From assembly GCF_009898475.1 (NCBI RefSeq), contig NZ_QURE01000006.1, forward strand, positions 1-53,637: a stretch of 53,637 nt of DNA. The letters run 5' to 3'. Positions within the stretch are counted from its first letter, which is position 1. The number at the start of each line of letters is the position of its first letter. Under the pieces are notes generated by a model, which was not told where the DNA came from, did no database searches, and worked only from the letters and a program-made list of their open reading frames with translations. The position numbers and the translations under genes were made by a program. Shown here one piece after another: positions 20,199-47,004 of this stretch. Origin of the DNA: Nitrososphaera sp. AFS. GTDB lineage: Archaea > Thermoproteota > Nitrososphaeria > Nitrososphaerales > Nitrososphaeraceae.

Positions 20199-21173
20199 AT
20201 GTATACAAGCCAGATAGATAATGACTTTGCTCAAAGCGTTAAAAAAGGGTTAGGAAGCAGCCGCCAAAAACGCATAGAGTCAAAATATTTTTACGATGCT
20301 GTGGGATCGACGCTTTTCGAGGAAATTTGTCGTCAGCCGGAATACTACCCATGGCGGGTCGAGACCTCGTTGCTTAGGCACCATTCCAAAGAGATAGTTG
20401 GAATGTTCGACGAGAATTTTGCGTTAATCGAGCTTGGCAGTGGTAGTTCAATTAAGACAAGGATACTGCTGCACGATCTTATATTGAGACAACCGTATGT
20501 GTATTACTTTCCGATAGATGTTTCAAAAGAGATGCTCTGTACGGCAACAAGGGGACTAGGTTCAGAATTTCCTAATCTTAGGGCTTCTGGCATTTCATCT
20601 GAGTATGTCGAAGGAATTAATAGAGCAAACAAGCTGATTTTTTCCAACCCCCAAATACCTCGTAGGAAATTGATAATTTTCTTAGGATCAAGTATAGGGA
20701 ATTTTGAGCCAAAAGACTCAATTTCTTTTCTACAACAATTAAGATCTACAATGGATAAAAAAGACGGGCTCGTGGTTGGGATTGATCTTCAGAAGGACAA
20801 ATCTGTTCTGGAAGCGGCTTATAACGATAGCATGGGATTCACAGCTAGATTTAACCTAAATCTTTTGACTCGAGTAAATCGGGAATTGGATGGAAATTTT
20901 GATCAACATCACTTCGTCCACCATGCCTTTTACAATTCTAGATTCAAGAGAATAGAAATGCATCTGTTGTCTACCAAAGAACAGGAAGTATATGTAGGTA
21001 GGTTATGCGAAACTTTTGGCTTCCAGGCAGGGGAGACGATCCACACGGAAAATTCATATAAATATTCATTGGAAGACATAAGGAGCATGGCTGAGAAAAG
21101 CCAATTTACTCTCAGAGCTGCTTTTATTGACGAAAAAAACTGGTTTAGCCTGGCTGTCTTTTCCCCTGGTTGA
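20199..21173 (+). CDS. egtD: L-histidine N-alpha-methyltransferase (EgtD-like)
   Basis: A 324-residue SAM-dependent methyltransferase of the EgtD/DUF2260 family. It shows YFYDAVGSTLFEEICRQPEYYPWRVE near the N terminus in separated blocks (YDAVGS, QPEYYP), the SAM-binding LIELGSGSSIKT, FPIDVS, and IIFLGSSIGNFEP. EgtD trimethylates histidine to hercynine, the first step to the antioxidant ergothioneine. The length matches the family. EgtB, the sulfoxide synthase, is often adjacent but is absent from this window, so hercynine production or a distant egtB must be considered. Confidence 0.93.
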   Translation: MYTSQIDNDFAQSVKKGLGSSRQKRIESKYFYDAVGSTLFEEICRQPEYYPWRVETSLLRHHSKEIVGMFDENFALIELGSGSSIKTRILLHDLILRQPYVYYFPIDVSKEMLCTATRGLGSEFPNLRASGISSEYVEGINRANKLIFSNPQIPRRKLIIFLGSSIGNFEPKDSISFLQQLRSTMDKKDGLVVGIDLQKDKSVLEAAYNDSMGFTARFNLNLLTRVNRELDGNFDQHHFVHHAFYNSRFKRIEMHLLSTKEQEVYVGRLCETFGFQAGETIHTENSYKYSLEDIRSMAEKSQFTLRAAFIDEKNWFSLAVFSPG

Positions 21174-38318: not shown

Positions 38319-38378
38319 TTGAGCCTAAAAGTCAAGTTGAATTTAAATATATTAAACCCAATTTCACAACCAAATCTC

Positions 38379-39389
38379 GTGCGATTACTGTTAGTTGGTT
38401 TTGGGGTGGTAGGTCAAAGCCTTGTAAAGTTGTTATTATCACGTTCGACCGATCTACATAAGTTATACGGGGTGAATCCCCGCGTCGTTGCGTGTATCGA
38501 CAGTCATGGCTCTGCTGTATCGACCGCCGGACTGGATCTCCAGAGGTTGCTGGAGGCAAAGAGATTGTTGGGCTCTGTTGGGGGTTACGATAGGTCCAAA
38601 CCAAATTATGAGTTGCCTTCTCTTATCGAGAAGGCTGATGCCGAGATTGTGGTTGAATTAACACCTACGAACATAGACAGCGGTGAGCCCGGCATTTCTA
38701 ATATTGTTGCATCACTAAAATCAGGAAAGCATGTTATTACAGTAAACAAGGGTCCGCTAGCTCTTGCTTTTCCATCGCTTTTAGAACTTGCGAATTACAA
38801 CGACGTTAAGCTTCGTTTTAGCGGCACGGTCGGAGGAGGAACCCCAATATTGGAGTTTGCCAAGCGTAGTTTGAAAGGTGACAATATACTATCGTTTCGT
38901 GGCATTCTTAACGGCACCACGAACTACATACTTAGTAAAATGGAACAAGGCCTCGAATTCAACGATGCCTTTAATGATGCCAAATTGAACGGATATGCTG
39001 AAGCATCCTCGCTTCTTGATATTGATGGTTTCGACGCAGCGGCCAAATTGGTAATCATGGCAAATTGGATCATGGGGATGAAAGTCACCATTAAGGACGT
39101 GTACAGACGTGGGATTGGTGACATAAATCTGACTGATGTCAAAAGAGCCAATAAAGCAGGGAAGGCTATAAAATTAATTGGCAAGTGTGAAAATAGACGT
39201 CTATGTGTCGAGCCCACGGAGCTGTCAAATACGGATCCAATTTGTGTGAATGGTACTCTAAATGCCGTGACCTTTTGTTCCCAACATTCAGGCGATCACA
39301 CAATTATAGGCCAGGGTGCAGGAGGGTCACCAACTGCAAGTGCCGTACTCAGAGATTTAATAGACATTCGTACCGCCTTATTGTTGTAG
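38379..39389 (+). CDS. hom: Homoserine dehydrogenase
   Basis: Reduces aspartate semialdehyde to homoserine for threonine and methionine synthesis. It has an N-terminal Rossmann motif (LLLVGFGVVGQSL), KHVITVNKGPLA, FSGTVGGGTPI, and the catalytic region RGILNGTTNYILSKM followed by DIDGFDAAAKLVIMAN with the active-site Asp and Lys. There is no C-terminal ACT domain and no aspartokinase fusion. The GTG at 38379 places the Rossmann strand at the N terminus (336 residues); a TTG at 38319 adds 20 residues of doubtful homology. Confidence 0.94.
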   Translation: MRLLLVGFGVVGQSLVKLLLSRSTDLHKLYGVNPRVVACIDSHGSAVSTAGLDLQRLLEAKRLLGSVGGYDRSKPNYELPSLIEKADAEIVVELTPTNIDSGEPGISNIVASLKSGKHVITVNKGPLALAFPSLLELANYNDVKLRFSGTVGGGTPILEFAKRSLKGDNILSFRGILNGTTNYILSKMEQGLEFNDAFNDAKLNGYAEASSLLDIDGFDAAAKLVIMANWIMGMKVTIKDVYRRGIGDINLTDVKRANKAGKAIKLIGKCENRRLCVEPTELSNTDPICVNGTLNAVTFCSQHSGDHTIIGQGAGGSPTASAVLRDLIDIRTALLL

Positions 39390-40783: not shown

Positions 40784-41452
40784 TTATACTCCTGAGCCAG
40801 ATAGCGAGCTTCCAGGTTGGATTATAACTTTTGTTCTCTGCTGAGGGAGGTCAAACTTTACAAAGTTTTCTCCGGAAATTGTCAGGCGCGCTGTATATTT
40901 GTCCGATCCAGGCTCGAGCCACCCCTTGTATCTGATGGTATTTTTGATGATGTCTGTTATGCTAGGTTTTTTCTCATCCACCTCTTCATAGCATGATAGG
41001 AGCTCACCATAGCGGACTTCGGATTGGCGGTTATGGTGGACTAAATAATAGGCGAAGACGGCAGTCTTTTCGTAATGATTGGCCGGTTTCTTTTGTGAAT
41101 AGAACTGGCGAAGGCCCAATTTATCGCCATTTCCCTTCAAATCAACTGGAATGGGAGGAAGTGATGAAGACTGTCTCGGAACGCTATGCTTAGAACTACC
41201 AGTTGGAGCAATTGATCGCTTGCTACGATCCTTGAAGGCAGGCATATTAAAACACTCCTTGTCCGATTCTAATATTGTGCCAAAACGACTAAGTAAGGTC
41301 TCTCCTATCTCGGAGTTGAAGATCTGTTCAAGCTTCTGAAGATGCTTATCGACAAAAGTTGTTGGTCCCTCTATCTCTACAGTCCCATCCTTTGAATTAA
41401 GCATAAATTTGGCCTCTGGAATTCTCAATATATTATAACCAGTTGCTGCCAC
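40784..41452 (-). CDS. Hypothetical protein convergent with endA
   Basis: 222 residues. The N terminus (LNSKDGTVEIEGPTTFVDKH) resembles a small strand-helix unit. The middle (about 85-125) is a Ser/Pro/basic linker. The C-terminal ~95 residues (HYEKTAVFAYYLVHHNRQSE, then SITDIIKNTIRYKGWLEPG and YTARLTISGENFVKFDL) look like a winged-helix domain. A domain of this type is typical of DNA- or protein-interacting proteins, but I do not recognise the family. It ends 3 nt from the endA stop. Confidence 0.7.
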   Translation of the reverse strand: MAATGYNILRIPEAKFMLNSKDGTVEIEGPTTFVDKHLQKLEQIFNSEIGETLLSRFGTILESDKECFNMPAFKDRSKRSIAPTGSSKHSVPRQSSSLPPIPVDLKGNGDKLGLRQFYSQKKPANHYEKTAVFAYYLVHHNRQSEVRYGELLSCYEEVDEKKPSITDIIKNTIRYKGWLEPGSDKYTARLTISGENFVKFDLPQQRTKVIIQPGSSLSGSGV

Positions 41453-41559: not shown

Positions 41560-43377
41560 ATGGCCGTGGTAAGTCATTTTCCTGCCCCACTCAAATTTTT
41601 AGACAAAGTAGTCGTGATTACTGGCAGCGGAACTGGTATAGGCCAATCGATTGCAAAAAAATTTGCAGAAAATGGTGCGCACATTGTTATTATGGGAAGA
41701 AGAAAGGAGCCCCTAGAAAATACATTAAATCTATTAACTGAGACCATGAATATCGTAGGTTCAAAAGCAACTGTCAGAAGCTTTCCAGGAGTCGATGTCT
41801 CAGATGAAGTTGGAATAAACGAAATGTACAGAGATATCGAACAAAAATTCGGTAAAGTCGATATAATTGTAAATAATGCTGGAATATCAGGTCCCGTAAA
41901 AGCCTTCACTAATGCTAGCTATGAAGAATTCAGGGAATGTGTGGCCATTCATTTGACTGGGACTTTTTGTGCTACGACACATGGCATCAGGACGATGCGG
42001 CCTGGCGGTAAGGTCATAACTGTGTCCACATTTTTTACTGAAGAGAATAAATTTGAGCAGAGGCCGTATCGGTTTAGAGCTCCATACACTTCTGCACAGG
42101 GATCCAAAAATAGATTGACAGAAGCCTTGGCGTGGGAGCTTGTAGAAATGGGGATTAAATCAATAGCAACTAATCCAGGGCCTGTCCATTCGGATAGAAT
42201 ATACAGGACTGTATACCCAAAGGCAGCTGCCGAGTTCTTAAGAATAGGTGGCTTTGAAGGCCTTAGTTCATCAGAAATCGAGAAAGCAACAAAATCCTTG
42301 TTGGATTTACTTGGCGAGCCGGAGCCAGTTATTAATATGGGAGTTAATAAGATAGCTAGCGAAATTTCTAAATCCCGCGAAACGATCAAACCTGAACTTC
42401 CAGAATCAAATGGTTTAGCTTCACTGATCTTCGAATTACTTAGAAAACTACAAGAAATAGCTGAAAAGATTCAGTCAAACACGTCAAAAATGATAGTTGA
42501 CGGAGAGTTTTTAACACAAGATGATGTGGCAAATATGGTTCTGAATCTGTGTGATGACAATATTAGCAAACTAATCAACGGTAGAATTATTCCAAACGAC
42601 CGAGTGTTCTATCCTGTTAAACCTATTATCGGGACGTCTATACTGGATTCCGACCAGCAGCGTTCTAACCTAGCCAACAAGGTTTTCGTCATAACGATAA
42701 CCTCCTCGGTGGAAAAGGATTTGGATAGAGCTTATAGTATTGCTACTGATCTTAGATCTAACAAGGCCAAACAAGTAATAATACTCACGAGAAATCCAAA
42801 GGATGCGATAAAGTTCAGAGAGTTTCATTACCATTCAATAGATTTTTCAGATGAAGGTCGCGTACGGACGATTCTCAAAACTGTAAGGTCTAAATTTGGG
42901 ATTCTTGATTCATTGATCCACATTACCGGCGATTACAACTACAATATGCCACTAATGTCGATTGAGAGATCTACATGGGATCAATTGGTTGACAATTTCA
43001 TTAATCTGCCTAGTTTAATCGTTAAGGAGGCTGTTAATATTATGGCGCCTCCAGGATCTATTGAGAACCCAGAAAACTATAAAGGAGTACAAGGTTCTAT
43101 CATAATTATCGGGCCGGATTCTCCAGTAGGAAAGAAGATTTCTGGACTGGTTAGAGCAAGGTCGGAAATCTTCAGGGGTGCACTAAGGCCTTACACCGCC
43201 ACTGTAAATCAAGAGCTTCGGGACGTGCTCGGCTCGAAAATACATGTTTATTTGCTGCTGCCAGGTAACATAGCGGGCGATAGCCCTAGTACAGCGTTGC
43301 TTACCAGTTCAGTGGCCGGAATATTGACCATGTCATATCAGCCCAATAATCAATCAATATTTTATATAGGCGAATAA
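41560..43377 (+). CDS. Tandem short-chain dehydrogenase/reductase protein, malonyl-CoA-reductase-N-like
   Basis: 605 residues with two SDR-type Rossmann units. The first (about 10-260) has TGSGTGIG, NNAG (105-108), Ser156 in VITVSTFF and Tyr176; the motif reads YTSAQ, so the lysine normally four residues after Tyr is Gln180 and the nearest Lys is 183. The second unit (about 370-605) is degenerate, with no TGxxxGxG. The layout and the local pattern (VSTFF, PYTSA, NPGPVHSDRIYRTVYP) recall the N-terminal half of Chloroflexus malonyl-CoA reductase, which reduces malonate semialdehyde to 3-hydroxypropionate. Such a role in the 3-hydroxypropionate/4-hydroxybutyrate cycle is inference. It could also be an inactive scaffold. 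Confidence 0.85.
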   Translation: MAVVSHFPAPLKFLDKVVVITGSGTGIGQSIAKKFAENGAHIVIMGRRKEPLENTLNLLTETMNIVGSKATVRSFPGVDVSDEVGINEMYRDIEQKFGKVDIIVNNAGISGPVKAFTNASYEEFRECVAIHLTGTFCATTHGIRTMRPGGKVITVSTFFTEENKFEQRPYRFRAPYTSAQGSKNRLTEALAWELVEMGIKSIATNPGPVHSDRIYRTVYPKAAAEFLRIGGFEGLSSSEIEKATKSLLDLLGEPEPVINMGVNKIASEISKSRETIKPELPESNGLASLIFELLRKLQEIAEKIQSNTSKMIVDGEFLTQDDVANMVLNLCDDNISKLINGRIIPNDRVFYPVKPIIGTSILDSDQQRSNLANKVFVITITSSVEKDLDRAYSIATDLRSNKAKQVIILTRNPKDAIKFREFHYHSIDFSDEGRVRTILKTVRSKFGILDSLIHITGDYNYNMPLMSIERSTWDQLVDNFINLPSLIVKEAVNIMAPPGSIENPENYKGVQGSIIIIGPDSPVGKKISGLVRARSEIFRGALRPYTATVNQELRDVLGSKIHVYLLLPGNIAGDSPSTALLTSSVAGILTMSYQPNNQSIFYIGE

Positions 43378-43584: not shown

Positions 43585-43881
43585 TTAGCTCGTTACTTGT
43601 TCGCTAGAAGATTCCGCTGCACTACTCGAGGTTGTGGACGTTGGCGCAGATGCCTCGCCATCAACAATTTCGGCTGTAGCGAATCTATTGCCTACTTGAA
43701 CTACTCTAATCTTTGCGTTCTGACCCACTTTGCCATTCTTCACAAATATTACGAATCCCTGGATCCTGGCAATCCCGTCTCCTTTCCTACTGATCTCAGT
43801 AATCTGTACGTCATACTCTTTGCCTGTTTCAACCGGTTTTGGACCAAAGTTGTCGTTCCTTCTGAATCCTCCATAACTCAT
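43585..43881 (-). CDS. TRAM-domain RNA-binding protein
   Basis: About 98 residues from the ATG at 43881, preceded by AAAGG; a start at 43917 is the longest option. The TRAM core spans EVQ-type strands: KPVETGKEYDVQITEISRKG then DGIARIQGFVIFVKNG and GQNAKIRVVQVGNRFATAEIV. Stand-alone TRAM proteins act as RNA chaperones in archaea. The N terminus (SYGGFRRNDNF) resembles other archaeal TRAM proteins, and the C-terminal tail is Ser/Thr/Glu-rich. It lies downstream of nadX on the same strand. Confidence 0.88.
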   Translation of the reverse strand: MSYGGFRRNDNFGPKPVETGKEYDVQITEISRKGDGIARIQGFVIFVKNGKVGQNAKIRVVQVGNRFATAEIVDGEASAPTSTTSSSAAESSSEQVTS

Positions 43882-43946
43882 ACTTGATACCTTTACTGAA
43901 GTCAGATCACCATCCATATATAAACTGTCAAAGTTATGTTAATCTT

Positions 43947-44777
43947 CTATGACCTCTTAAACCAACTTCCGCATGCTTGTCGTAAGCATTCAATTGCCGA
44001 ATGCACTGCCAAGATACTAGTCTTAGGATTACTGGGGGTTTGTACGCTTCTAACATTTATCAGAACTTCTCCGAATGGCCCGGTAGCTCTGATGTTGTGC
44101 TGATTTACGTTAATATGCGGATCTGCAATTATTTCGACTCTCGTTTTCCGAAGACCGACTCCTGCGAGGCCCAAGGCCACTGCAACATTGATATTTGCTG
44201 GGAATTTCTCAGCAGCGTCTAGTGCATCACCCTGATATACAAGTGTACTTTCCTTTATAGTCTCTAATTTTACTGGATTAGAAGCAAAAAATGGGGCATC
44301 CGCCAAGGCTTTAGGATTTTTCGTTGTCGTAAGCGTAACTGAATCGAGATGTCCTTTAAGGCTCCTTATTGCATCTAAACCGGCTATAGCGCCGGTGGGC
44401 ACGTATATGTGATTCTTGTTTGTTAGGGCTATATCAAGCAATTCGGACGAGAAAGAATCGTCAGACAAGGCGCCGACGCTCATTAAAAAGAGATCTTTTT
44501 TGTATTTTAACACGAATTTGCCATATTGCTTAGCAGCAGCTTGTGAGGCGGCCTCAATCACGATATCAGTGATCCTAAATTCTTGAGAGCAAACAAAGTC
44601 AGTAAAGCTAGAAAAGGAAACTACATTGTGATTATGAAGACGAAGTTTCAACCTTTGAGTGGATATCTGCTCGGCATCAAATATGGCAACTAAGTTTGCG
44701 TTCTCTATTCTCCCGGAATCTATGGATATTGCTAATTCGCTGCCAATTGCCCCACATCCAATTATAGAAATATTCAT
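43947..44777 (-). CDS. nadX: L-aspartate dehydrogenase
   Basis: Oxidises aspartate to iminoaspartate with NAD(P), the first step of de novo NAD synthesis, replacing the oxygen-dependent NadB. From the ATG at 44777 it is 276 residues: Rossmann MNISIIGCGAIGSELAISID, VIEAASQAA, MSVGALSD, PTGAIAGLDAI and a C-terminal ADPHINVNQHNI motif with the substrate-region His. The frame can extend to 44876 but that would run through the S30e gene. Together with nadA and nadC it completes the route to nicotinate mononucleotide. Confidence 0.93.
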   Translation of the reverse strand: MNISIIGCGAIGSELAISIDSGRIENANLVAIFDAEQISTQRLKLRLHNHNVVSFSSFTDFVCSQEFRITDIVIEAASQAAAKQYGKFVLKYKKDLFLMSVGALSDDSFSSELLDIALTNKNHIYVPTGAIAGLDAIRSLKGHLDSVTLTTTKNPKALADAPFFASNPVKLETIKESTLVYQGDALDAAEKFPANINVAVALGLAGVGLRKTRVEIIADPHINVNQHNIRATGPFGEVLINVRSVQTPSNPKTSILAVHSAIECLRQACGSWFKRS

Positions 44778-44820
44778 GAGATAGCCCAGGGCTTTCAGAA
44801 CAAAATCATGCCATAAGGAA

Positions 44821-45000
44821 TTATCTCCTACCGCCTCTTTCCGGCCTTTTTTGTCCTGGTGGCCTTCTCCTTTCAAAACGCTTGACGAAGTTGTTCTTAT
44901 TGCGAAGCTTTGACACAGGACTTTGCCTGACCTTGCCTTGAATTTTAGGAGTCTGACCCCTTACTTTCCCTGCCTTGGTCAAAGATCCATGAGTTGGCAT
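44821..45000 (-). CDS. rps30e: 30S ribosomal protein S30e
   Basis: A 59-residue protein, short enough to be missed by a 60-residue cutoff. It begins [20 protein letters not shown] and contains [20 protein letters not shown] with an extremely basic composition, matching S30e. The ATG is at 45000 and a TATA-like element lies ~30 nt before it. Its stop is 43 nt before the nadX start, so the two are likely co-transcribed. S30e is another protein limited to eukaryotes and Crenarchaeota/Thaumarchaeota-type archaea. Confidence 0.93.
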
Positions 45001-45024
45001 TGCCTATATATACTGAAAATCAAT

Positions 45025-45035
45025 CTAATATATAC
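45025..45035 (-). promoter_or_regulatory. TATA element of rps30e-nadX
   Basis: On the reverse strand GTATATATTAG lies 25-35 nt upstream of the S30e ATG. The spacing suits a leaderless archaeal transcript. A second TATATATA run sits at about 45005-45012, too close to the start to be the promoter. Confidence 0.4.
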
Positions 45036-45158
45036 ATATCCATAGTACTGTGTAATATCAATGTGGCAAGTATTGCCATACTTTGGAATATCCAGGGCAG
45101 CCATCTCCTCGAATATACTCGTTTAAATGTGCTTCAATGTTGGTTGAAGCAGTAGACA

Positions 45159-46100
45159 ATGCTTGAAGAGCGCAAGAATAGACTGCAACAATTAAAGAAG
45201 TCAAAAAATGCAATAATAATCGCACATAACTATCAATTGCCGGAGGTGCAAGAGGTAGCTGATGTCATCGGTGATTCGCTAGCGCTATCAAGAACTGCTG
45301 CACAATCTGATGCACAAACAATAGTGTTCTGTGGTGTGCATTTCATGGCTGAGACAGCAGCTATTCTTTGCCCTGACAAACAAGTTTTAATTCCTGACTC
45401 CGATGCCGGGTGTTCTCTCGCTTCCAGTGTAAACACAGCGGAAGTGAAGTCTTGGAAAGCTAAACATCCAAACGCAATTGTAGTGAGCTATGTTAATACC
45501 TCGGCTGAAGTAAAGGCTTTATCAGATTATTGTTGTACTTCATCCAACGCAGTCAAAATAGTGAACAGTATTCCTTCAGAGCGAGAGATTCTTTTCCTTC
45601 CAGATATGTTTTTGGGTTCATACGTAGCAAAAATGACGAATAGAAAAAATATGTACATTTGGCCGGGCGAATGCCACGTTCATGCAGGAATAAAGCCAGA
45701 TGATATTAATATTATGCTCAAGAAATATCGACATGCGGATTTTCTGGTACACCCTGAATGTGGCTGTACTTCGACTGCCCTGTATCATACTTCGACTGGA
45801 GAATTGGAGAAATCAGCACATATTCTTTCAACTGACGGGATGATGAAGCATGTGACTACCTCGAGCGCTAAGCAGTTTGTAATTGCTACAGAGACCGGTA
45901 TTCTAAACAGAATGAAGAAACAAAATCCAGATAAACAATTTATTCCGATAAAGAAGGACGCGATTTGTAGGTATATGAAATTAATTAACCTGGAAAAATT
46001 AGAAAACTCGCTCCTTAACAATGTGTACCAGGTCAAAGTTCCATCCAATATTGCGTCGAAAGCAAAAGATGCAATTACACGTATGCTTTCTATTGGTTGA
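45159..46100 (+). CDS. nadA: Quinolinate synthase
   Basis: Condenses iminoaspartate with dihydroxyacetone phosphate using a 4Fe-4S cluster. 313 residues with IIAHNYQLPEVQEVADVIGD near the N terminus, FCGVHFMAETA (first cluster Cys), PDMFLG, WPGECHVHAG (second) and VHPECGCTS with the third Cys. All three cluster ligands are present. The start is ATG at 45159. It is divergent from the S30e-nadX pair and convergent with nadC 16 nt away, so the three NAD genes are clustered but not in a single operon. Confidence 0.95.
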   Translation: MLEERKNRLQQLKKSKNAIIIAHNYQLPEVQEVADVIGDSLALSRTAAQSDAQTIVFCGVHFMAETAAILCPDKQVLIPDSDAGCSLASSVNTAEVKSWKAKHPNAIVVSYVNTSAEVKALSDYCCTSSNAVKIVNSIPSEREILFLPDMFLGSYVAKMTNRKNMYIWPGECHVHAGIKPDDINIMLKKYRHADFLVHPECGCTSTALYHTSTGELEKSAHILSTDGMMKHVTTSSAKQFVIATETGILNRMKKQNPDKQFIPIKKDAICRYMKLINLEKLENSLLNNVYQVKVPSNIASKAKDAITRMLSIG

Positions 46101-46116
46101 TTTGAAAATCTTGATG

Positions 46117-47004
46117 CTAGTCTAGCTGGCTAATTATTCTCAAGCTGAAATCAATTGCCCTAGGTGAATGTGTGAGGTACCCTAGCGAGATGATGTCAGG
46201 TCTCAACCGTGCATAAGACATAATATTTTGCAACCCGATTCCGCCGGATATTTCTGTTTTAATCTTTTTGCGATGTGCTTTTTTCCTAATTGCGACCATC
46301 GCAACTCCCGCTTGCACCAATGAAAAGTTATCGAGCATTACGATGTCCACGTCAGCGTTTATCGCGGAATACATTTCCTTCAAATTCTTAACTTCGCATT
46401 CAAGCAACAGACCGCCGTGAGTTTTTTCAGTTGCAGTTCTGGCAGAGTCTCTGATAGACGGATTCAAAGTTAGATGGTTATCCTTTATCAATAGCATATC
46501 GTCAAGCCTCATTCTATGTGACCAACCGCCCCCGAGTTCTACTGCCTTCTTATCAAAGTAGCCTAGCCCAGTTGCTGTCTTTCGGGTACATGCAACTGTT
46601 GTGAATCTGTTAACCTTTCTTACCAATTTAACGGCCTTCCGGGTTTCCGTTGCAATACCGCTCATCCGCATTATGAGGTTTAATGCGGTTCTTTCTGCTT
46701 TCAGTATGGCTCTAGCTAAGCCTATGACTTTCATTACTACGCAACCCTTTTTAACGCTCCCTCCATCTGAAGCAAGTGCCTGAACGCTGCACCCGCATAT
46801 TTCGAAGACCATGCCTGCTTCTCTCAACCCTGCGATTGTCGCAGGCTCATCTGATTTGCAGACAATCTCTGCTGAAGTGGAGATCCCTGGCGCAATAATG
46901 CAATCAGTTGTTATATCACATGTACCCACATCCTGCGCCAAAAAATTTACTAGCGATTTTCTAATTGTAAGATATGTATGTAAATCCTCCGTAATCTCTG
47001 GCAT
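46117..47004 (-). CDS. nadC: Nicotinate-nucleotide pyrophosphorylase (quinolinate phosphoribosyltransferase)
   Basis: Transfers PRPP to quinolinate to give nicotinate mononucleotide. 295 residues with an N-terminal DVGTCDITTDCIIAPG, AERTALNLIMRMSGIATETR, TRKTATGLGYFDKKAV, MLLIKDNH, CEVKNL, VDIVMLDNF and ISGGIGLQNI: the known catalytic and substrate residues of type II phosphoribosyltransferases. Its ATG overlaps the spt4 stop (TAATG), so it is translated with spt4 in the rpoE-spt4-nadC operon. Confidence 0.95.
   Translation of the reverse strand: MPEITEDLHTYLTIRKSLVNFLAQDVGTCDITTDCIIAPGISTSAEIVCKSDEPATIAGLREAGMVFEICGCSVQALASDGGSVKKGCVVMKVIGLARAILKAERTALNLIMRMSGIATETRKAVKLVRKVNRFTTVACTRKTATGLGYFDKKAVELGGGWSHRMRLDDMLLIKDNHLTLNPSIRDSARTATEKTHGGLLLECEVKNLKEMYSAINADVDIVMLDNFSLVQAGVAMVAIRKKAHRKKIKTEISGGIGLQNIMSYARLRPDIISLGYLTHSPRAIDFSLRIISQLD

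Follow-up and report, generated by a model that had tools for sequence, protein, structure and literature searches.

The ammonia-oxidising archaea (AOA) universally carry a gene for a protein of two SDR units in tandem, which among the archaea of the phylum that were checked is restricted to them. The gene is real, and in its product the lysine of the catalytic Y-x-x-x-K site is fixed as glutamine while a second fixed lysine lies at position i+7 from the catalytic tyrosine. To judge from its sequence, the protein is probably an NADPH-dependent reductase, and the reaction that fits best, with a chance slightly short of even, is the conversion of malonyl-CoA to malonate semialdehyde; the next choice is the reduction of malonate or succinate semialdehyde. 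In the dark ocean and in soils, AOA account for much of the carbon fixation, and malonyl-CoA reduction is the second step of their cycle.

The window analysed here is a stretch of 53,637 nucleotides from Nitrososphaera sp. AFS (contig NZ_QURE01000006.1). The tandem SDR gene and the parts of its product are located in it as follows.

41560..43377, + strand: tandem SDR gene, an open reading frame with an ATG start, 605 aa and a stop codon at 43375-43377
41599..42204, + strand: SDR1, residues 14-215, intact NADP(H)-type SDR catalytic domain (Pfam adh_short, model)
42205..42654, + strand: helical insert and linker, residues 216-365 (helices in the model)
42655..43374, + strand: SDR2, residues 366-605, degenerate SDR (separate model, Foldseek, hmmsearch)

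The reading frame is neither a chance ORF nor a sequencing error. It represents a genuine gene: of 70 Nitrososphaeraceae genomes, 66 carry an orthologue; comparison with the nearest relative yields a dN/dS of about 0.16 (0.073/0.440); and all 84 distinct orthologues keep both Gln180 and Lys183. The sole good SDR match in Pfam is adh_short, at residues 16-212 (E 2e-40). The full-length AlphaFold model, for which an alignment of 67 orthologues served as input, contains two Rossmann units (pLDDT 87.6, pTM 0.89), and the helices of the insert span residues 212-230, 237-250, 255-276 and 283-313. SDR2 modelled separately also adopts an SDR fold (pLDDT 93.6), so the tandem arrangement proposed in the first-pass annotation is borne out, as are its motif placements (VSTFF at 155-159, PYTSA at 175-179 and NPGPVHSDRI at 205-214). 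By sequence SDR2 is a remote SDR (hmmsearch, E about 1e-5) with neither a Gly-rich loop nor a Y-x-x-x-K site, and the top 50 Foldseek matches to its model are ordinary SDRs.

The active-site elements of SDR1 are distributed along the gene as follows.

41620..41643, + strand: TGSGTGIG dinucleotide loop, residues 21-28 (conservation)
41698..41703, + strand: Arg47-Arg48 after β2, invariant, the expected contact to the 2'-phosphate of NADPH
41872..41883, + strand: NNAG motif, residues 105-108, invariant
42028..42030, + strand: Thr157 at the catalytic Ser/Thr position (Thr165 of Roseiflexus MCR-N), invariant in 84 orthologues
42067..42087, + strand: Y170-x-x-R173-x-x-Y176, the YXXRXXY motif that includes the catalytic Tyr, invariant in 84 orthologues
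42097..42099, + strand: Gln180 at the site of the catalytic Lys (i+4), Gln in 84/84 orthologues
42106..42108, + strand: Lys183 at i+7, the proposed relocated lysine, Lys in 84/84 orthologues
42178..42201, + strand: GPVHSDRI, residues 207-214, start of the substrate/cofactor lid, with Ser211 and Arg213 invariant

SDR1 thus has the classical SDR features (TGxxxGxG and NNAG motifs, Rossmann fold) and an incomplete Ser/Thr-Tyr-Lys triad, in which Thr157 and Tyr176 are kept and the lysine is replaced by Gln180. Loop residues T21, G22, S23, G24, G26, I27 and G28 are invariant in the 67 orthologues. The active-site stretch reads T157-FFTEENKFEQRP-Y170-RF-R173-AP-Y176-TSA-Q180-GS-K183. Invariant among 84 distinct orthologues are T157, E161, E162, Q167-R173, P175-T177, Q180, G181, K183-R185 and H210-R213; these orthologues span all four AOA families, namely f67 and the families f1, f2 and f3, which we read as Nitrososphaeraceae, Nitrosopumilaceae and Nitrosocaldaceae. 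At the equivalent of residue 180, all 26 background SDRs and all five domains of malonyl-CoA reductase (MCR) have Lys; at that of residue 183, the background SDRs have I/L/V/M, MCR-N has L/M and MCR-C has Gln. Compared with the YAVSKAGQ of MCR-C, the AOA consensus YTAAQGAK has Lys and Gln exchanged between i+4 and i+7, and in an ideal-helix estimate the two positions lie on the same face (i+7 at -20 degrees and i+4 at +40 degrees from the Tyr). The first-pass annotation had noted Gln180 with Lys183 nearby in this one protein and had named a lysine at 180 in close relatives as evidence against its reading; such a lysine was looked for and is absent. Since both residues are invariant in all four AOA families, the change is ancient and fixed. 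Relocation of the lysine to i+7 would be its simplest reading.

The remaining residues can be compared with those of the Roseiflexus enzyme, in which the SDR1 triad is Thr165-Tyr178-Lys182, malonate semialdehyde is held by Tyr172 and Arg175, the cofactor is held by Ser213 and Arg215, Arg41 touches the 2'-phosphate, and the YXXRXXY motif of SDR3 binds malonate (PMC10470521). The AOA equivalents of these sites, T157, Y176, Y170, R173, S211 and R213, are kept, with the exception of Lys182. Position 47 is Arg in 5/5 MCR domains. The Ser/Thr position is Thr in MCR-N and Ser in MCR-C and in 25/26 background SDRs; Ser211 is common to MCR-N, and Arg213 to both MCR halves. YXXRXXY occurs in 5/5 MCR domains, and Arg at -3 from the Tyr in 0/26 background SDRs. 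It was dropped as an MCR-specific signature, being found in plasmid-borne single-domain SDRs as well. YxxRxxPY is also present in the single-domain SDRs L140, L141, L142, L145 and 5unl; therefore, the motif would indicate a carboxylate-bearing substrate that is not certain to be malonate. The search of plasmid sequences yielded no full-length relative of the tandem SDR and no MCR-C.

The kinship of SDR1 to the MCR SDRs was evaluated by profile, fold and tree, with a Chloroflexus MCR comparison sequence that was checked against PDB 8hjw. Searching the PDB with the AOA profile gave MCR as the best match when whole chains are scored (E 1.8e-45, the sum of two domains), whereas single domains of MCR-C (85 bits) and of glucose dehydrogenase (90 bits) score alike. 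The full-length model matches MCR halves first in Foldseek: of the 26 top-ranked matches all but one are MCR halves (E 6e-26 to 2e-19), the exception being the MFE-2 tandem SDR 2et6 at rank 25, and single SDRs follow at E 1e-13. Superposition of the full-length model on the MCR halves gives RMSD values of 7-10 Å. In trees of SDR1 the AOA domains, MCR-N and MCR-C group together with support of 83/93, 85/79 and 98/85 over three samplings, each with five MCR domains only, which makes the result preliminary; the last of these, with 40 rows, omitted long-branch rows and took in the nearest single-domain SDRs. A topology that joins the AOA domains to those SDRs instead is rejected (p-AU 0.014). At this first look, SDR1 therefore appears to be kin of the MCR SDRs, and a placement outside them, which the first-pass annotation had named as refuting it, was not seen.

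The narrower part of that annotation, likeness to the N half of MCR in particular, is not supported as worded. The MCR-C half scores slightly higher by sequence, the N half fits better by Thr157 and Ser211, and the tree does not separate AOA+MCR-N from AOA+MCR-C (p-AU 0.47 for the latter); with scores, residues and tree in disagreement, assignment to either half was abandoned. No significant sequence match was found between the extra domain of MCR-C and the helical insert. Likewise, SDR2 was rejected as MCR-specific on the strength of its separate model and fold search. With an SDR2 that on its own does not resemble MCR, the tandem layout may have had a separate origin.

The tandem SDR is single-copy, and its distribution matches that of amoA. 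In the phylum sample it occurs in 73 of 398 genomes, and the same 73 carry amoA; in the order sample it occurs in 202 of 300. In a re-check of amoA in 29 genomes, both genes were detected in f67 and neither in 16 genomes from amoA-less families, and the six amoA-positive drafts with no tandem SDR match are fragmented assemblies. Two AOA genomes of 0.8 Mb (G563 and G578) keep the tandem SDR, with only two SDR candidates each at a first look. The carriers form one clade, and therefore the co-distribution with amoA represents one gain, not many; among the best genomes there is no clear loss. Universality in the AOA clade points to a core function, without saying which. One assembly listed at 3% contamination contains two differing copies (G622:C47 and G622:C82), which are probably mixed strains.

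No cycle genes lie beside the tandem SDR gene, and no operon with cycle genes is present at the loci examined. Upstream, Nitrososphaeraceae and Nitrosopumilaceae share a PhoU-like gene and a tRNA endonuclease with a small divergent gene between. In the window, 40784-41452 (- strand) encodes a protein of ~200 aa with no assigned family, which is read divergently from the tandem SDR and is limited to the window's genus and its close kin; elsewhere in the AOA the same upstream place is occupied by an unrelated conserved protein of 125-135 aa (cluster c3, e.g. L040:5489-5884). Downstream, NAD biosynthesis genes follow in the window's genus and some relatives, and a hotdog-like gene in most Nitrosopumilaceae genomes. 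The group adjoining the tandem SDR at 43585-47004 of the window comprises genes for a TRAM-domain protein, an aspartate dehydrogenase-like protein (NadX), quinolinate synthase and an NadC-like protein, and is conserved in about four relatives only. The hotdog-like gene is located, for example, as follows.

L095:7564-8010, - strand: hotdog-like gene; same place in G122, G158, G335, G345, G171, G177 and G082

This hotdog/MaoC-like gene encodes 148-180 aa and lies directly 3' of the tandem SDR on the same strand at 8 of 10 Nitrosopumilaceae loci. Its product shows weak similarity to MaoC-like 1q6w (E 0.0014) and has no Pfam match; distant copies occur elsewhere in some Nitrososphaeraceae genomes and none in Nitrosocaldaceae. 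Operon evidence for a role in the cycle was discarded, given the lack of adjacent cycle genes and a hotdog-like neighbour in part of the AOA only. A literature search for the N. maritimus locus tags Nmar_1000-1005, guessed from position, found nothing. Elsewhere in the window, 20199-21173 (+ strand) encodes an EgtD-family histidine-specific SAM methyltransferase (PF10017, E 7e-105), which suggests ergothioneine-type chemistry.

The larger gap in the AOA pathway is malonyl-CoA reduction, rather than the malonate semialdehyde reduction to which the first-pass annotation had pointed. Sulfolobales use a dedicated Asd-type malonyl-CoA reductase, a paralogue beside Asd. In 24/24 genomes, amoA-less G403 included, exactly one Asd scores above the curated cut-off. 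Since Asd is needed for threonine and methionine and each genome has one, there is no spare dedicated Asd-type malonyl-CoA reductase; homoserine dehydrogenase is encoded in the window at 38319-39389, and the genome from which the window comes also has a gene of the 4-hydroxybutyryl-CoA dehydratase family. Malonate semialdehyde reduction has a proven enzyme, the iron-ADH Nmar_1110. A strong iron-ADH match is absent from six Nitrosocaldaceae and two f67 genomes, all with the tandem SDR, and the weaker matches there are probably glycerol-1-phosphate dehydrogenase. The window's genome (G000) and G021 have no strong Nmar_1110-type match either; the congeneric G024 has one, and draft incompleteness could be the cause. 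In the literature, the malonyl-CoA reductase gene of AOA is described as unidentified, with its activity measured (PMC6038301; PMC4510362; PMC6964070), the succinate semialdehyde reductase likewise is without an identified gene (PMC6038301), and Asd and GabD of N. viennensis are candidates still to be proven (PMC12542715). N. cavascurensis lacks Nmar_1110, and SDRs ~30% identical to Caur_2614 (Chloroflexus MCR) were proposed as stand-ins by its authors (PMC5797428). Here, that proposal is narrowed to one universal gene.

We infer an active, NADPH-dependent enzyme with a malonyl or C4 substrate and a place in the cycle. The active site would reside in SDR1, with SDR2 as a structural partner. 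NADPH would be bound by SDR1 through TGSGTGIG and Arg47/Arg48. Going by residues conserved as in MCR, Tyr170 and Arg173 would hold the substrate carboxylate, and Tyr176 with Thr157 would polarise and protonate the carbonyl. With the i+4 Lys and the i+7 Gln swapped, Lys183 may position the ribose of the nicotinamide and supply the proton relay one turn further on. In its full form the proposal states that in all AOA malonyl-CoA is reduced to malonate semialdehyde by a stand-alone MCR-like tandem SDR with a rearranged Y-x-x-x-Q-x-x-K triad, which would be the long-missing reductase of the thaumarchaeal cycle; we consider it tentative and, taken whole, somewhat unlikely. The preferred reading, malonyl-CoA reduction by SDR1, is supported by the co-distribution with amoA, the single copy and the retention in 0.8 Mb genomes; by the SDR1-MCR grouping, the MCR-first fold matches of the full-length model and the invariant MCR substrate residues; by the gap at malonyl-CoA reduction with no spare Asd paralogue; and by the presence of the gene where Nitrosocaldaceae and f67 have no strong iron-ADH. 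Against it stand an SDR2 that is not MCR-like, YxxRxxPY in single-domain SDRs, the lack of adjacent cycle genes, and a CoA-binding extra domain in MCR-C that has no sequence match here. The catalytic reading itself is opposed by the loss or strong reduction of activity when the i+4 Lys of Roseiflexus MCR is removed (PMC10470521) and by the outcome of this analysis that, among characterised SDRs, none with Lys at i+7 came to light.

That essential lysine also speaks for a non-catalytic regulator or scaffold, which would have kept NADPH binding and lost catalysis with the Lys, replaced here in every orthologue. The first-pass annotation had left this option standing. It is now less likely, and we regard it as improbable: the cofactor loop, Tyr176, Thr157, the YxxR residues, Ser211, Arg213 and the new Lys183 are all invariant, and a pseudoenzyme is not expected to retain substrate residues and gain a lysine on the same helix face. 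Moreover, 46 of the 79 positions in residues 154-232 (58%) are invariant, compared with 22% for the remainder of SDR1 and 9% for SDR2; the active-site segment is thus the part under the strongest selection, which argues for catalysis.

An active enzyme could still serve another reaction. A semialdehyde reductase that is not CoA-dependent, acting on malonate and/or succinate semialdehyde, would be the sole enzyme for the step in Nitrosocaldaceae and f67, and in other AOA a partner of the Nmar_1110-type iron-ADH or a succinate-specific enzyme beside it. The match of Thr157 and Ser211 to the MCR-N half, the reducer of malonate semialdehyde, favours this, as do the eight genomes that keep the tandem SDR with no strong iron-ADH, the N. 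cavascurensis stand-in proposal and the vacancy at succinate semialdehyde reduction. However, the tandem SDR is universal even alongside the Nmar_1110 type, where pure redundancy is unlikely, and the helical insert and slightly better MCR-C scores would go unexplained; we consider this function unlikely. Equally doubtful is an AOA-specific oxidoreductase outside the cycle, engaged for example in acyl-thioester or cofactor chemistry for ammonia oxidation or membrane lipids, whose MCR likeness would reflect shared SDR ancestry only. The gain of the gene coincides with the whole AOA clade, which gained other traits too, SDR2 is not MCR-specific, and the hotdog fold of the Nitrosopumilaceae neighbour is typical of acyl-thioester enzymes; yet that gene is patchy and is lacking in the window's genome as well as in Nitrosocaldaceae and f67, and SDR1 is tied to MCR by tree and residue signature. 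Malonyl-CoA reduction remains the preferred reading, and with a single-copy gene of amoA-like distribution and bacterial kin the gap becomes one cloning and assay experiment. If active, the protein would be an SDR in which a swap of Lys and Gln has moved the catalytic lysine, and it would offer a rare opportunity to test how rigid the SDR triad is. It would also link the archaeal cycle to the bacterial SDR-type malonyl-CoA reductases, and not to the Asd-type enzyme that Sulfolobales use.

Among known systems, the bifunctional MCR of Chloroflexus, Roseiflexus and Porphyrobacter has ~1220 aa and four tandem SDR units, in contrast to the 605 aa and two units of the AOA protein. Because length and triad both differ, the tandem SDR is not a member of that enzyme class; in function it may resemble a single MCR half. 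The N half (SDR1-SDR2; PDB 8hi6, 8aew, 6k8v) likewise pairs a catalytic with a degenerate SDR and shares Thr at the Ser/Thr position, YxxRxxY, and the Ser and Arg of GP-x-x-S-[DE]-R, with a full-length fold match of E 2.8e-25 and a TM of 0.76 by target length. The AOA protein differs from it in the i+4 Gln for Lys, the extra helical insert of ~60 residues and its stand-alone form. The C half (SDR3-extra domain-SDR4; PDB 6k8s, 8a30, 8hi5) gives the best sequence and fold scores and shares YxxRxxY, a helical insert between the SDRs and a Lys/Gln pair at i+4/i+7, whereas the AOA protein has that pair exchanged, Thr for Ser, and an insert whose sequence does not detectably match the extra domain. 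The 5unl-type single-domain SDRs (Y-x-x-R-T-P-Y) share the Tyr and Arg before the catalytic Tyr, but have one domain and a normal Lys, and their joint grouping with the AOA domains is the one rejected above. Nmar_1110, the iron-type malonate semialdehyde reductase, belongs to the same cycle with a proposed overlap in substrate and has an unrelated fold, while the Asd-type malonyl-CoA reductase of Sulfolobales, whose reaction is the one proposed for the AOA protein, comes from an unrelated family with a semialdehyde dehydrogenase fold instead of the SDR fold.
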